Assembly (NCBI GenBank): GCA_947173495.1
Contig: CAMWFQ010000023.1
Coordinates: 1 to 64,000, forward strand
DNA: 64,000 nt
DNA from: an uncultured Lachnospiraceae bacterium
GTDB taxonomy: Bacteria > Bacillota > Clostridia > Lachnospirales > Lachnospiraceae
Reading direction: 5' to 3'
Shown here: piece after piece, positions 49,874 through 55,830 of the stretch
How the letters are laid out: each line of letters opens with the position of its first letter
Position numbering within the stretch: the first letter of the stretch is position 1
Program-made: the position numbers and the translations under genes
Notes under the pieces: generated by a model
The model's database searches: none
What the model was told of the DNA's origin: nothing
Seen by the model: only the letters and a program-made list of their open reading frames with translations

Positions 49874-50599
49874 ATGTTTCTTTACACAGATATACATACA
49901 CATATCCTTCCCGGAGTGGATGATGGAGCCAGAAATGAGGAGATGTGTATGGAAATGCTTGCGGCGGCAAATAAGGATGGAGTCAGCAAAATTTTCCTTA
50001 CCCCGCACAGTAAGCCGATGCATCATAACGCGGATCCTTCCAAAATCAGAGAGCTTACGGCAGGACTCCAGGAAGAGGTACAAAAAAACAGTCTGGAACT
50101 GAAGCTGTATACAGGCAATGAACTTTATTATCGGAGTGAGCTCTTAGAACTGCTGGAGGAAGGAGAAGTATGCACACTGGCCGATTCGGATTACGCGCTG
50201 ATTGAATTTGGTCCAATGGATGATTTTGAATACATAAGAAAGAGCATGTACCGGATTCTCTCGGGGGGATATCGTCCGGTTCTGGCTCATGCAGAGCGCT
50301 ATAACGTTCTGTGGAAGTCTGTGGAGAAGGCCGCCGCACTGGTGGAAATGGGATGTTATCTTCAGATAAACGGGGGAAGCATTACGGGAGAGTACGGTTT
50401 TAAAGTCCAAAGGTTCTGCAGACGTCTGCTGGCATTGGATCTTGTGCATTTCGTGGCATCAGATGCTCACGACGATCAAAAAAGAGGCTGCCGTCTGTCG
50501 AAATGCGCCAAATATATCAGCAAAAAATACGGGCAACAGCGGGCGGAGCAGATTTTTGTGAACAATCCGGCCAGCGTCATTGCGAATGATTATATATAG
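49874..50599 (+). CDS. CpsB/CapC-type PHP protein-tyrosine phosphatase
   Basis: 241 residues from ATG 49874 (AGGTGAG upstream). A longer frame to 49769 would add 35 residues that do not fit the family. PHP-fold, metal-dependent phosphatase that removes phosphate from the CpsD tyrosine kinase and so modulates capsule synthesis. Motifs: 'YTDIHTHILPGVDDGARNEE', 'FLTPHSKPMHHNAD', 'RPVLAHAERYNVLW' and 'VHFVASDAHDDQKRG'. The metal-binding His and Asp are present. First gene of the capsule operon; its stop codon lies inside a long palindrome. Confidence 0.92.
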   Translation: MFLYTDIHTHILPGVDDGARNEEMCMEMLAAANKDGVSKIFLTPHSKPMHHNADPSKIRELTAGLQEEVQKNSLELKLYTGNELYYRSELLELLEEGEVCTLADSDYALIEFGPMDDFEYIRKSMYRILSGGYRPVLAHAERYNVLWKSVEKAAALVEMGCYLQINGGSITGEYGFKVQRFCRRLLALDLVHFVASDAHDDQKRGCRLSKCAKYISKKYGQQRAEQIFVNNPASVIANDYI

Positions 50600-50670: not shown

Positions 50671-51402
50671 ATGGAAAATCGGAGAGGACAGGATGAGATA
50701 GAGATTGATCTGATAGAGGTGTTTGGGATCCTGATCGGCAAAATATGGCTGATCATCGGGAGCGGACTGCTGTTTGCACTTGCGGGCTTTCTGATCAGCA
50801 GATATTTGATTACGCCTGTTTATGAGTCAACCACCAAAATCTACATTCTGAATAAAACGGAGAACGCCTCGATTACTTACAGCGATGTGCAGATGGGCAC
50901 ACAGCTGACCAAGGACTATGCGGAGCTGATCGGCAGCAGGTATGTGCTTGAAAAGGTGATTGAGGAGCTTTCGCTTACCATGGAGTATGACGAGCTGTAT
51001 AAAAAAATAAGCGTGGAAACGCCCAGCGATACCCGTATTGTTTCTATCACGGTGGAAAGTATCGATCCGGCGCAGGCCATGGAAGTTGCCAACTGCATCA
51101 GAGAAGTTGCAAGCACCCACATTCAGAATGTCATGGATATCGATGCGGTGAATGTGGTGGAAACTGCGAATTTCCCGGTGGATAAGGCAAAGCCGAGCTG
51201 TGTAAAATGGGCGCTGGCAGGGGGAATTCTGGGATGCTTTATCGTATGTGCCGTTCTTTTGATCCGCTGTCTTTTAGATGATACCATTAAGTCCTCGGAA
51301 GATGTGGAGAAATACCTGAACCTGAGCACGCTTGCGCTGATTCCCATAACGGAGGAAGAATCTTCATCTGTGCGGAAAAGCAGAAAGAAAAGGCAGAGAT
51401 AA
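50671..51402 (+). CDS. Wzz/CpsC-type polysaccharide chain-length and kinase-activator protein
   Basis: 243 residues with the Wzz layout: an N-terminal helix 'KIWLIIGSGLLFALAGFLIS' (near 25-45), an extracytoplasmic domain ('YESTTKIYILNKTENASITY', 'LGSRYVLEKVIEELS-like segment') and a C-terminal helix 'KWALAGGILGCFIVCAVLLI' (near 182-202). The cytoplasmic tail 'DDTIKSSEDVEKYLNLSTL' contacts the CpsD kinase. In Gram-positives CpsC and CpsD form one functional kinase. GGAGAAGTG is upstream. It begins 71 nt after cpsB. Confidence 0.92.
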   Translation: MENRRGQDEIEIDLIEVFGILIGKIWLIIGSGLLFALAGFLISRYLITPVYESTTKIYILNKTENASITYSDVQMGTQLTKDYAELIGSRYVLEKVIEELSLTMEYDELYKKISVETPSDTRIVSITVESIDPAQAMEVANCIREVASTHIQNVMDIDAVNVVETANFPVDKAKPSCVKWALAGGILGCFIVCAVLLIRCLLDDTIKSSEDVEKYLNLSTLALIPITEEESSSVRKSRKKRQR

Positions 51403-51423: not shown

Positions 51424-52146
51424 ATGCAGAGTGTAAGCTTACATTTTGATCAGGAAGAGGACTACCGTGCCAGAGAGGCTTTTAAAACTTTAAGGAGCAA
51501 TATTGAATTCTGCGGAGAAGAGATCCGGGTGATCGCAATCACAAGCTGTACCCCCAACGAGGGCAAGTCCAGTATTGCCATGGAGGTGGCGAGGGCGTTT
51601 TCGGAAGCGGGAAACCGTACGCTGCTGATCGACGCGGATATGCGTAAATCGGTGTTGATGGGACGTTATAAGACCGGTGCGGTGAAGCTGGGGCTGACCC
51701 ACAGTCTGATCGGAAGGGCGGATTACAAGGAGATCATATGCAGCACGAACCTTTCAAGGCTTTATATGATTTTTTCAGGACCGGTGCCTCCGAATCCCAG
51801 CGAGCTTCTGGGCGGAGATAAGTTTATCGCTCTTCTGAAAACACTGAAGGAGGTCTTTGACTATATTATTGTGGATACCCCGCCTCTGGGAAGTGTAATC
51901 GATGCGGCCGTGACGGCAAAAAGCTGCGATGGTACCGTGCTGGTGGTGGAAAGCAATGCGGTCAGCTATAAATTTGCACAGAGGGTCAAAGAGCAGCTTG
52001 ACAAGACCGGCTGCAGAATACTGGGAACCGTGCTGAATAAGGTGGATATGAGCAGTAAGGGATATTACGGGCATTACGGAAAATATTACGGCAAATATTA
52101 TGGAAAGTACTACGGAAAATATGGGAAAGAAAAGACCCGGGCTTAG
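51424..52146 (+). CDS. CpsD/CapB-type tyrosine-protein kinase
   Basis: 240 residues. BY-kinase with Walker A 'TPNEGKSSIAMEVARAFS', Walker A' 'LLIDADMRKSVLMGRYK' and Walker B 'YIIVDTPPLGSVIDAAVT'. The autophosphorylated C-terminal tail is a run of repeated YYGK/HYGK units ending 'KEKTRA', with about ten Tyr in 20 residues. It governs capsule length and export with Wzz and is dephosphorylated by CpsB. The tail overlaps the start of the next gene in another frame (26 nt if that gene starts at 52121). Confidence 0.93.
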   Translation: MQSVSLHFDQEEDYRAREAFKTLRSNIEFCGEEIRVIAITSCTPNEGKSSIAMEVARAFSEAGNRTLLIDADMRKSVLMGRYKTGAVKLGLTHSLIGRADYKEIICSTNLSRLYMIFSGPVPPNPSELLGGDKFIALLKTLKEVFDYIIVDTPPLGSVIDAAVTAKSCDGTVLVVESNAVSYKFAQRVKEQLDKTGCRILGTVLNKVDMSSKGYYGHYGKYYGKYYGKYYGKYGKEKTRA

Positions 52147-53203
52147 GCTTTGGATGAAAATACTTCTGGGAGTCATACTGGCGTCCGGTATTGCATATTT
52201 GTCTTTTGAAGCAGTCCGCGCCATCGGCGGAGCAAATTTGAAAAAGAAAGCCAGACAGTCAGCGCCGGAGCTGGTGCAGAGGCCGGATGAAGAGATGAGC
52301 CCCGAACAACTTCCGGAGTCGCCGGAAGAAGAAAGGTGGCAGGAGGGATGGATCCGTTATCAGGGAAGGATCTATGCCTATAATGAAGACATCAGAACCT
52401 TTTTATTTATGGGTATTGACAAAAATTCCGATGTGGAGGAAGTGGAAGAGGGGACAGAGGGAGGACAGGCAGATGCCCTGTTTCTGGCGGTTTTGAACCC
52501 TCACCGTAAATTGATTCAGGTGATCGGCATTAACAGAAATACCATGACAGATATTGATGTGTATGACGATCAGGGAGAATATGTGACCACCACGCAGGCG
52601 CAGATCGCAGTACAGCACGGCTTTGGGAACGGTCTGGAGGAGAGCTGTGACTATCAGCAGAGGGCGGTTGAGCGGCTTTTTTATCAGCTGCCCATACATG
52701 GGTATGCGGCGGTAAATATGAGTGCCATCTCCACCATCAATGACGCGGTGGGAGGCGTGGACGTAACGGTGCAGGAGGATCTGACGAAAGTGGACAAAAC
52801 GCTTACAGAGGGCGCTTTGGTGCATCTGACCGGGGAGAGCGCCTTCTGGTATGTGAAATATCGAGATGCAGAGGAATTCGGCTCCGCGGACCGGCGCCTT
52901 GCCAGGCAGAAACAGTACTTAAATGCTCTGATAAAAGCGGCGAAGCAGGCCGCCGGAGAGGATATCACGGTGGCGGGAAGACTCTATCAGGCAATTTCGG
53001 CGCAGATGGTGACAAACATTTCTCTGGATGAGGTGGTCTATCTTGCCCCGCTTCTGGTGAACTACCGGTTTGATGCAGACAGCTTTTATATGCTGGAGGG
53101 AGAAACGGTCATGGGAGAGAGGTTTGAGGAGTTTTATGCAGATGAAGACGCCCTGTATGAGATGATTCTGGAGATCTTTTATGAGGAAATGAAAGATGAA
53201 TAG
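52121..53203 (+). CDS. LCP (LytR-CpsA-Psr) family glycopolymer ligase
   Basis: 360 residues from the ATG at 52121; an upstream in-frame ATG at 52100 is possible. It overlaps the cpsD tail. An N-terminal helix 'ILLGVILASGIAYLSFEAV' anchors an external LCP domain: 'TFLFMGIDKN', 'QADALFLAVLNPHRKLIQV', 'GINRNTMTDIDVYD', and the C-terminal 'FWYVKYRDAEEFGSADRRLARQKQYL' split Arg motif. LCP enzymes attach capsule or teichoic polymers to peptidoglycan. In place of the usual 'IPRDT' it reads 'INRNT', a small variation. It belongs to the capsule operon and overlaps the next gene by 8 nt. Confidence 0.88.
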   Translation: MGKKRPGLRLWMKILLGVILASGIAYLSFEAVRAIGGANLKKKARQSAPELVQRPDEEMSPEQLPESPEEERWQEGWIRYQGRIYAYNEDIRTFLFMGIDKNSDVEEVEEGTEGGQADALFLAVLNPHRKLIQVIGINRNTMTDIDVYDDQGEYVTTTQAQIAVQHGFGNGLEESCDYQQRAVERLFYQLPIHGYAAVNMSAISTINDAVGGVDVTVQEDLTKVDKTLTEGALVHLTGESAFWYVKYRDAEEFGSADRRLARQKQYLNALIKAAKQAAGEDITVAGRLYQAISAQMVTNISLDEVVYLAPLLVNYRFDADSFYMLEGETVMGERFEEFYADEDALYEMILEIFYEEMKDE

Positions 53204-54092
53204 ATGGGGATTGACCTGGAAAAAAGCCTCCGGTCTCAGGATCTTGTGTAGCATTCTTTCAGTCGGCCTGTTTTTGCTGCCAGGGTGCGGCAGCAGAGAG
53301 AAACCGGAACAAATGACAGTGCCGGAACAGAAAGAGATGCCGGAAACGGGGGAGGAGGCGGCGCAGAAGGCAGAAGAGCAGGCGCTTCAGGGCAAAAAAG
53401 AGGGTAAAGAAAGTAAAGAGGAGAGCGGCTGTCTGGGGGAATCTGCCCGGGACGGGACGATAGACTTTCCAGCGCTCCAAAAGATAAACCCTGATATTTT
53501 CGCATGGCTCTATATTCCGGATACTCAAATTGACTGCCCGATCCTTCAGAGCCAGGAGGCGGACGACTATTACGAAAGCCACAATGCCTTTCAGGAGATC
53601 AGCGAGGAGGGGGCGCCGTATACGGAGCTTGCCAATCTCAGGGATATGTGTGATTTCAACACGGTGATTCACGGGAAGAGCTCTTTTCAGGGGGAGGAGA
53701 CGGGTCAGGAAGCTTCTGCAGAGGGAGTGTTTGCGGATCTGAAGAGATTTGCAGATCCTGCGTTTTTTGACAGTCATCAGGAATTTTATATTTACCTGGA
53801 GGATAATCTTCTGACCTATACCATATTTGCAGCCTATGAGAGGGAAAACACCAGCCTGATCCGAAGCTATGACTTCACATACGGCGGGGGCTGCGAAGCA
53901 TTCCTGGAGGATATGTATGGACTGCGGGAAATGGGAAAAAACCTCCGCGAAGGCTGGGAAGACGTGACCCCTTATCATTTTCTTGTAACACTGACCGCTC
54001 ACAGCAGTGAAAATCCGGAAAAACAGTTTGTGGTACTTGGCGCGCTTATATCCGACGCGGCGGGAAAGATCGACCGGCAGGTAGAGTGGTGA
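53196..54092 (+). CDS. Sortase-B-fold lipoprotein with all three catalytic residues replaced
   Basis: 298 residues. Signal sequence with lipobox 'LSVGLFLLPGC' (Cys near 31), a charged linker (32-90), then a class B sortase fold: 'IDFPALQKINPDIFAWLYIP', 'IDCPILQSQEADDYYESHN', 'EGVFADLKRFADPAFFDSHQ', 'NLLTYTIFAAYE'. Canonical class B shows NTVIYGHN, TLSTC and R-[FY]-VV. Here these read 'NTVIHGKS', 'VTLTAHSS' and 'KQFVVLG': His to Lys, Cys to His and Arg to Gln. So it cannot be a normal transpeptidase. It may be a binding or scaffold protein of the capsule assembly. Start overlaps the LCP stop by 8 nt; GAGGAAATG is upstream. Confidence 0.75.
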   Translation: MNRWGLTWKKASGLRILCSILSVGLFLLPGCGSREKPEQMTVPEQKEMPETGEEAAQKAEEQALQGKKEGKESKEESGCLGESARDGTIDFPALQKINPDIFAWLYIPDTQIDCPILQSQEADDYYESHNAFQEISEEGAPYTELANLRDMCDFNTVIHGKSSFQGEETGQEASAEGVFADLKRFADPAFFDSHQEFYIYLEDNLLTYTIFAAYERENTSLIRSYDFTYGGGCEAFLEDMYGLREMGKNLREGWEDVTPYHFLVTLTAHSSENPEKQFVVLGALISDAAGKIDRQVEW

Positions 54093-54215: not shown

Positions 54216-55040
54216 GTGAAAAGGATGATCGCTCTTGCAGCGGCAGCAGCCATGATTTGCAGTATGCCTGTTATGGCGGCAACGAGCCCCTCTGCGGCAG
54301 CAGTGATGGCCTCTGTTGCCCAAGAGGCAGCTTCCGAAGGCAAATCGGTAGGAGAATATACCAATAATGCGGTGGTAGAGGTTCCAGGTCTGGACGAGGT
54401 GACACCTATCGCTCAGGGAGGACACGTGATCATTAACGGTGCCCCCAGCAATGTGGTCTTCTTTCTGACCAAGCCTTCAGCCAAAACAGTAACGCTTGCC
54501 AGAAACCAGGCGGATGCCCTTGGAGGGAAGGTGCTCAATGTGGTCGGCACCAAATCCCAGGCGGTGGGGAAATTCGAAACAGCCCAGGTAAACTTCTATG
54601 CAAAGGGAGTAAGGACCGGCCAGCTGATCAAAGTCTATCAGCTCATCGATGGTGAGTGGGTAGAGCTTGAGATCGCAGAGATACGGGACGACCATGTGGT
54701 GGTAAACATGACTGCTCATGGGATTCTGGCCTTTATCGAAGTGCCGGAAGCAGAAAACGCAGAGGAACCGAAGACGGAAGCAGCTGAAGTGACGAAAGCG
54801 GAAGCCGCAGAGGAACCGAAGACGGAAGCAGCTGAAGTGACGAAAGCGGAAAGTGCAGAGAAACCGAAGGCAGAATCTGTCAGTGAGCCGAAAGCGGAAG
54901 CCGCAGACAAATCAAAGGCGAAAACGGCTGAAGTGACAAAAACGGAAGCCACAGAGGAGCCGGAGTCGGAAACAGCAAAAAAATCAGAAGCAGGAACTGC
55001 TGAAGAACCGGCAAAGGAAGCTGTCAAAGCGTCGAAATGA
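54216..55040 (+). CDS. Exported protein with Lys/Glu/Pro/Ala repeat tail
   Basis: 274 residues from a GTG at 54216 with AGGAGG at 54201-54206; an upstream frame from 54129 would disturb the signal peptide. Signal peptide 'MIALAAAAAMICSMPVMA' ends before ATSP. A ~150-residue mature domain ('NAVVEVPGLDEVTPIAQGG', 'SKAKTVTLAR-like NVVFFLTKPSAKTVTLARN', 'GRLIKVYQLIDGEWVELEIA') is followed by ~100 residues of acidic, basic-interspersed AEEPKTEAAEVTKAE repeats, without LPxTG. Such proteins sit at this position in many Lachnospiraceae capsule operons; function unknown. The palindrome CCCGGATATCCGGG (54183-54196) precedes the ribosome binding site. Confidence 0.65.
   Translation: MKRMIALAAAAAMICSMPVMAATSPSAAAVMASVAQEAASEGKSVGEYTNNAVVEVPGLDEVTPIAQGGHVIINGAPSNVVFFLTKPSAKTVTLARNQADALGGKVLNVVGTKSQAVGKFETAQVNFYAKGVRTGQLIKVYQLIDGEWVELEIAEIRDDHVVVNMTAHGILAFIEVPEAENAEEPKTEAAEVTKAEAAEEPKTEAAEVTKAESAEKPKAESVSEPKAEAADKSKAKTAEVTKTEATEEPESETAKKSEAGTAEEPAKEAVKASK
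54759..54902 (+). repeat. 48-bp coding tandem repeat
   Basis: Three units begin GCAGAG at 54759, 54807 and 54855. The first two are almost identical and encode AEEPKTEAAEVTKAEA; the third is degenerate. Likely variable in copy number among strains. Confidence 0.8.
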
Positions 55041-55125: not shown

Positions 55126-55830
55126 ATGGAGATAGTGTCAGCCGATGAGACGGACCGCTTAAATATGCAGAGACAGAGAGAAAAAGCTTACAGAAATGAT
55201 TTACAGAGTATTTATGAGAAAAAAAGCAGCGGCTATAAGCTTATGAAGCGGCTGCTTGATATTGTGCTGTCATGTATGGCACTGGTGTGTCTGTCTCCGG
55301 TTTTTCTGGTCTGTGCTCTGGCGATTAAGCTGGAGGATGGCGGGCCGGTATTTTTCGTTCAGCCCAGAGCCGGGAAAAACTTCAGGCTGTTTCACATTTA
55401 TAAATTCCGCAGCATGTATGTAAATGCCGACGAGGATTTTGCGGAGATGATGAAATATAATGAACAGACAGGCCATGCCTTTAAGATCAGAGAGGATCCC
55501 AGGATCACCAGAGTAGGCAGGGTTCTGCGGAGAATGTCTATCGATGAACTGCCTCAGCTGATCAATATCATCAAAGGGGATATGAGTATTGTAGGTCCCC
55601 GCCCCCTTCTGGCATTTCAAATGACGGAATGCAATGACTACCAGAAACAGAGGCTGCTGGTACAGCCCGGCCTGACCTGTTACTGGCAGATCAGCGGCCG
55701 CGCGGACGTCAGGTGGGACGAGTGGGTGGAAATGGATCTGGATTACATAGAAGATATGAGCTTGTGGACAGACGTGAAAATAATTGTAAAGACGATCCCG
55801 GCGATTGTGTCGGGGGAGGGGGCGTATTAG
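55126..55830 (+). CDS. Priming sugar-phosphate transferase (WbaP/CpsE family)
   Basis: 234 residues. It transfers the first sugar phosphate to undecaprenyl phosphate and so starts repeat-unit synthesis. The short monotopic form: one helix 'LLDIVLSCMALVCLSPVFLV' (near 45-65), then 'FRLFHIYKFRSMYVNADEDF', 'RRMSIDELPQLINIIKGDMS', 'IVGPRPLLAF' and 'VQPGLTCYWQISGRADVRWD'. All bacterial-sugar-transferase core motifs are intact. The sugar cannot be told. GGAGAAGC stands upstream. Confidence 0.93.
   Translation: MEIVSADETDRLNMQRQREKAYRNDLQSIYEKKSSGYKLMKRLLDIVLSCMALVCLSPVFLVCALAIKLEDGGPVFFVQPRAGKNFRLFHIYKFRSMYVNADEDFAEMMKYNEQTGHAFKIREDPRITRVGRVLRRMSIDELPQLINIIKGDMSIVGPRPLLAFQMTECNDYQKQRLLVQPGLTCYWQISGRADVRWDEWVEMDLDYIEDMSLWTDVKIIVKTIPAIVSGEGAY

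Follow-up and report, generated by a model that had tools for sequence, protein, structure and literature searches.

A conserved sortase-fold lipoprotein without catalytic residues in a capsule operon, and its neighbor without a sorting motif

The locus and its sortase-like gene

The window, i.e., the whole stretch of 64,000 nucleotides analyzed here, carries a capsule operon in which a gene for a lipoprotein with a class B sortase fold lies between the gene of an LCP glycopolymer transferase and that of a secreted protein, SecX. The features used below are all on the forward strand:

49874..50599, +, CpsB/CapC tyrosine phosphatase of the capsule operon (Pfam PF19567, 5e-91)
50671..51402, +, Wzz chain-length protein (Pfam PF02706, 2e-20)
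51424..52146, +, BY-kinase (NCBIfam TIGR01007, above cutoff)
52100..53203, +, predicted LCP glycopolymer transferase (Pfam PF03816, 8.8e-21; GxD and QAD Asp and conserved Arg kept)
53196..54092, +, lipoprotein with a class B sortase fold and a dead active site, 298 aa (frame intact, fold of SrtB, triad residues replaced)
53286..53288, +, codon of the lipobox Cys31 (LLPGC); aligned Cys in 34/34 orthologues vs 1/85 live rows with a letter there
53649..53651, +, codon of Cys152 in the clade-specific motif MCDFN; Cys in 32/33 readable orthologues vs 1/88 live rows
53676..53678, +, codon of Lys161, aligned with the catalytic His; Lys in 21/34 orthologues
54000..54002, +, codon of His269, aligned with the catalytic Cys; His in the window protein only (n=34 orthologues)
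54024..54026, +, codon of Gln277, aligned with the catalytic Arg; Gln in 33/33 readable orthologues
54216..55040, +, SecX, secreted, of a presumed former substrate family, without SPxTG (seed HMM E 2.9e-8, L001 copy)
55126..55830, +, initiating sugar-phosphate transferase (Pfam PF02397, 1.4e-69)

The open reading frame at 53196-54092 encodes 298 residues plus a stop, its frame is intact, and it shares 8 nt with the LCP gene at 52100-53203, which is the coupling that a sequence-only reading of this DNA had described. The AlphaFold model of the protein (mean pLDDT 78, with 141 of the 298 residues at 90 or more) has a sortase B fold. When this model was searched with Foldseek, the top 19 matches were all class B sortases, with E values between 4.6e-15 and 2.9e-11, the best being SrtB of C. 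perfringens and S. aureus. The window protein scores 84.6 bits against the class B sortase family of NCBIfam (TIGR03064), below the curated cutoff of 153.75. Five orthologues also stay below it (60.4-109.4 bits), and L088, a relative with an intact triad, reaches 170.3. Pfam, searched with an E limit of 1, gave no sortase match for the window protein; among five orthologues tried, one was above the Pfam Sortase cutoff, two were below it, and two had no sortase match. Alignment with class B sortase-like proteins that are intact, L002-L005 of the same genome among them, puts Lys161, His269, and Gln277 where these have the catalytic His, Cys, and Arg. By its fold, with sequence and model in support, the window protein is a class B sortase. 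It is not a class B sortase enzyme: the catalytic Cys, His, and Arg are absent, the score is below the TIGR03064 cutoff, and there is no membrane signal anchor. Reading frame, alignment, and AlphaFold/Foldseek thus agree with the sequence-only reading on an intact gene, a sortase B fold, and the three replacements.

Relatives and phylogeny

A sample of 37 genomes of the genus was searched, of which 15 hold 21 copies scoring above 200 bits, and none of these 21 copies has an internal stop. One more distant dead copy was found in another genus (G243). Named contigs, some of them the same ones, gave 17 loci, among them Butyrivibrio spp., Lachnospiraceae bacterium 28-4, IMSAGC_005, and UBA7143. 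A search of 397 genomes of the family yielded class B sortases of other genera, and most of the matches listed down to about 1e-37 were taken into the set. Once identical sequences were dropped, there were 34 distinct dead proteins, a few with ambiguous residues, and their clade extends across several genera. The resulting set of 143 distinct sortase-like proteins divides into 107 with the triad (hereafter live), 34 that have lost all three residues (dead), and two, L100 and L141, that have lost His and Cys and kept Arg (semi-dead). At the two semi-dead genes (L100:6884-7762 and L211:6001-6765, the latter corresponding to L141), the Cys became His (LSTHVS) and the His became Gln or Pro. A later search across the class, in 391 genomes, added four dead proteins (L218-L221) and three live ones.

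We built a phylogenetic tree, rooted at the midpoint for drawing only, in which a single branch (support 100/99), recovered in all 200 bootstrap trees, separates the 34 dead proteins from the rest. The dead proteins belong to a superclade of 124 rows (99/96), with 88 intact and 2 semi-dead sortases. The 19 rows outside it include L004, L005, L118, and L119 of the window genome, and none of the 19 has an LCP gene within 3 kb, full flanks being available for two of them. The fork joining the dead clade to live relatives is open and the stem is long (1.07), so that no single live relative stands out as nearest. The ancestor is read as intact from the intact outgroup and by parsimony. An LCP gene lies within 3 kb of 66 of the 88 intact sortases in the superclade. 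Homologues that keep the triad beside an LCP gene, which the sequence-only reading had held to count against it, do therefore exist, though in other lineages than the dead clade.

Residues, anchor, and selection in the dead clade

The triad is missing from all 34 distinct orthologues, and its replacements are unevenly kept. The sequence-only reading had asked whether Lys, His, and Gln are conserved at these places; we found this for Gln277 (invariant in the 33 readable orthologues) and not for Lys161 (21/34) or His269, in whose column the remaining 33 orthologues show Q, V, S, R, E, K, T, G, D, or P. The same reading had suggested a new chemistry using the new His, and we reject catalysis by His269 because this His is confined to the window protein among the 34 orthologues. 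A substitute triad at the old site is not supported, as the old Cys and His columns hold no conserved replacement. The clade has conserved residues of its own: Met151, Cys152, Phe154, Asn204, Cys233, Gly253, Trp254, Phe262, and Asp287 are each present in at least 90% of the dead clade and in less than 30% of live rows. Cys233 is found in 33 of the 34 orthologues. Cys152 and Cys233 would be candidates for a disulfide, but each of the two is missing singly once, with Thr at 152 in L108 and Ala at 233 in L049. Trp254 is absent, by eye, from L218 and L220, two of the four later dead proteins.

Class B sortases usually carry an N-terminal membrane signal anchor. In the dead clade its place is taken by a lipobox, which fits 32/34 dead proteins vs 7/88 live ones, among which L193 alone was judged convincing. 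The lipobox noted earlier in the window protein (LLPGC, with an unusual Pro at -2) is borne out by the alignment of Cys31 in 34/34 orthologues. The semi-dead sortases keep the membrane anchor.

The dead-sortase gene is under purifying selection: dN/dS over the sortase domain is 0.086, 0.08, 0.088, and 0.206 in the four pairs with dS <0.3 (among the remaining two of six pairs, one gave 0.034 at dS 2.1 and one was not computable). Constraint has also shifted along the protein. Beta7 (entropy 0.89 in dead vs 0.90 in live proteins) and the beta7/beta8 region (2.51 vs 2.58, hardly tighter) serve as a yardstick, because the dead clade is narrower than the live set. Constraint is lower in the dead clade after the old His (2.19 vs 1.03), and the old His and Cys places are themselves variable there. 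It is higher in the turn before beta4 (0.05 vs 1.61), in the beta6/beta7 loop (1.31 vs 2.61), and likewise in beta6. According to the part of PMC5118464 used here, the beta6/beta7 loop of S. aureus SrtB helps line the substrate groove.

The LCP gene and the capsule operon

In 34/34 cases the dead sortase has an LCP gene on its own strand, 58 nt away or less, with many overlaps, and the usual gene order is LCP, dead sortase, SecX; the L049 locus has a rearranged order. Among the 29 dead rows with more than 4 kb of upstream sequence, 21 have CpsB, Wzz, and BY-kinase genes upstream, L045 has two of the three, and in seven (L040, L044, L046, L104, L105, L107, and L108) all three are absent.

From its Pfam domain and its catalytic Asp and Arg, the gene at 52100-53203 is predicted to encode an LCP transferase. 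In the dead clade, the LCPs have retained the GxD Asp, the QAD Asp (once NAD), the Arg of INRN, and one later Arg. We take the Arg among these motif residues to be the counterparts of those named for the A. oris LCP. The residues used for this comparison are those named in the consulted part of PMC6381275. The dead-clade LCPs have NRN vs mostly SRD or PRD at live loci, and the first Arg of YVR is mostly K or Q in them. The change from RD to RN occurs also beside the live L090 and L097 and the semi-dead L100.

SecX and the joint absence of its sorting motif

The gene at 54216-55040, which the sequence-only reading did not mention, has relatives with an SPxTG motif where the sortase is intact and without it where the sortase is dead. 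The C-terminal tail of SecX (54745-55037) is repetitive, rich in K/E/A/P/T, and modeled with low confidence, and many orthologues stop before it. The SecX fold has no significant match in the PDB (best E 0.017); weak matches to GAIN, ankyrin-complex, and NLRP1 chains are a hint at most.

To search for SecX, we used a profile seeded from 36 live-locus proteins that had been picked for having a sorting signal. It found a SecX-like neighbor beside 61/88 live, 32/34 dead, and 2/2 semi-dead sortases. The 61 live rows (60 distinct SecX proteins) comprise 46 full sorting signals, 14 proteins that end at the motif, and one that ends in AKMGE; by rule, an SPxTG-type motif is present in 60 of them, AKMGE being the exception. 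The motif is absent from SecX beside dead (0/32) and semi-dead (0/2) sortases. As 37 of the live rows use a seed protein, the 24 non-seed rows are given separately: 9 full signals, 14 without the tail, and the AKMGE one. A profile made from the dead clade only also matches live-locus proteins ending in SPKTG-like motifs, most of them with a hydrophobic stretch and a basic tail. Over all loci, its 12 live-side matches are 9 full signals, one without the tail, and two cut at the end of the locus, the longer copies of which (L098 and L092) carry signals; the motif occurs in 0/35 of its dead-side matches. For comparison, the motif rule is met by 110 of the 3019 ORFs of at least 100 aa at these loci, repeats and SecX genes included.

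Relatedness matters for how these counts are read. Fisher's test on 0/34 vs 47/66 gives 2e-13 and ignores relatedness, and the tree count is the fair measure. On the tree, the triad changes three times and the motif three times, jointly each time. As the whole dead clade is one event, a sign test on the three independent pairs gives p 0.25, too few pairs for significance. The later search agrees with this pattern: the dead proteins L218-L221 have SecX beside 4/4 and the motif in 0/4, and at the live loci 3/3 neighbors have a signal, those of L226 and L227 being clear SecX relatives and that of L228 a weak one (E 0.004). Since the motif is absent just where the sortase is dead, the histories of sortase and SecX are tied. 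This presence beside intact sortases and absence beside dead or semi-dead ones argues strongly that SecX was probably the substrate of the ancestral capsule-locus sortase.

SecX was not detected beside 27 of the 88 live rows, including 8 of the 66 with an LCP gene. In five of these eight (L086, L094, L087, L174, and L163), a short protein with a signal stands in its place. The tail-less SecX beside intact sortases (L201:4305-4952, L208:6014-6568, L099:6179-6916, L198:5009-5878, L213:550-1353, and nine other rows) end in SPKTGE/N/R, SPKTGDR, SPKMGE, or APKTGE(F), followed by a stop. By eye, no hidden hydrophobic tail was seen for these 14 in three frames over 150 nt downstream. Two genomes hold several cassettes. 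G649 has a live one with an SPRTG SecX (L226) plus a dead one with an untagged SecX (L229), and G298 has five sortase-SecX cassettes (L198 two, L213, L132, and L129), two of which are convergent on one contig.

A proposed history and its alternatives

Judged by sequence, five things stand together: absence of the triad, a single clade, purifying selection, conserved neighbors, and joint absence of motif and triad. With the catalytic residues gone and selection purifying (dN/dS 0.08-0.21 in the four unsaturated pairs), the retained non-enzymatic role put forward in the sequence-only reading is also our best reading. The active site is gone, the neighbor lacks its tag, and yet both genes were kept, which points to such a new role, probably in capsule display. 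The ancestor would have been a capsule-locus class B sortase paired with an LCP ligase, which anchored its neighbor SecX to the wall through SPxTG, in a module of LCP, sortase, and SecX that carried or organized capsule at the wall. Three changes would then have occurred in the ancestor of the clade, whose direction and order we infer: loss of the Cys-His-Arg triad, replacement of the membrane anchor by a lipobox, and loss of the SecX sorting motif. What was retained would be the sortase body, now a docking subunit without catalysis and with a lipid anchor, to which SecX and/or the LCP ligase would attach at the membrane; with this anchor and an untagged SecX, the docking would be non-covalent. 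Docking of either or both would keep the capsule polymer displayed. We believe this account as a whole, from an enzyme that anchored SecX to a docking subunit, somewhat more readily than we doubt it. Within it, continued binding of SecX or LCP by the dead protein is moderately likely. That such binding serves capsule display is an analogy of moderate strength, the comparison with srtB4 (see below) being one of locus type, not of sequence. More tentatively, and as something we suspect rather than expect, the sortase may have turned into a lipid-anchored receptor of its former substrate, with membrane tethering replacing covalent wall anchoring, and a similar inactivation may have begun independently in two other lineages.

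The close association with the LCP gene might instead mean that the dead sortase scaffolds or activates the LCP ligase only, with SecX as a bystander. The LCP gene is on the same strand within 58 nt in 34/34 loci, often overlapping (by 8 nt in the window), and the LCP of the dead clade is itself altered, with INRN and mostly YVK/Q. However, the linkage of SecX is nearly as tight (32/34), and its motif is missing exactly where the sortase is dead, and we consider a pure LCP partner unlikely. Decay of a gene carried along by its operon is scarcely credible. It would fit the lack of all three catalytic residues, but dN/dS is 0.08-0.21, on which gene decay was rejected, 21/21 genus copies have 0 internal stops, clade-specific residues are conserved, and copies occur in several genera.

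One might also suppose that catalysis persists in the window protein at a new active site, e.g., around Cys152. Cys152 (32/33 readable), Cys233 (33/34), and Gln277 (33/33) are indeed typical of the dead clade, and live rows have them rarely or never. Yet Cys152 precedes the old His by nine residues and comes before the model strand at 155-161, and hence is probably far from the old site. Neither cysteine is universal, given the Thr of L108 and the Ala of L049, and the variable old Cys and His places and a SecX without sorting motif speak against this explanation too, which we regard as quite improbable.

Comparison with known systems

The window protein appears to be a conserved sortase pseudoenzyme. 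In the openly licensed literature searched, we found no description of one; in the part of PMC8615915 concerned, 'degenerate sortase' denotes a cleavage motif. With class B sortases (TIGR03064, C. difficile SrtB), the protein shares fold and descent, and the neighbors of its live relatives bear an SPKTG-type motif; C. difficile SrtB is a class B sortase with (S/P)PXTG substrates according to the portion of PMC4155245 consulted. It differs from them in lacking Cys, His, and Arg, in having a lipobox in place of the membrane signal anchor, in scoring below the family cutoff, and in having an adjacent substrate candidate without motif. The A. oris LcpA-GspA-SrtA pathway, in which an LCP glycosylates a sortase substrate (PMC6381275, in part), is alike in that LCP, sortase, and surface protein act together. 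In contrast with the dead protein, the SrtA of that pathway is an active, actinobacterial, housekeeping sortase.

Similar in locus type is M. gnavus srtB4, a class B sortase gene whose capsule cluster, RGna_12030 to RGna_12060, also holds an LCP gene (RGna_12040) and tyrosine phosphatase genes. In the sections of the 2026 study drawn on here (PMC13121745), srtB4 and the LCP gene of the cluster are both required for capsule display, and SrtB4 is treated as a sortase enzyme, unlike the dead protein. Presumably, srtB4 is RGna_12035 and a member of the superclade. The discussion of that study already points out that genes close to these sortases encode candidate targets which bear putative sorting signals, and thus the idea of a neighboring substrate is not new. 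The joint absence of triad and motif supports SecX as a substrate of capsule-locus sortases, and this offers a concrete test of a published question, namely why capsule display in M. gnavus needs a sortase.
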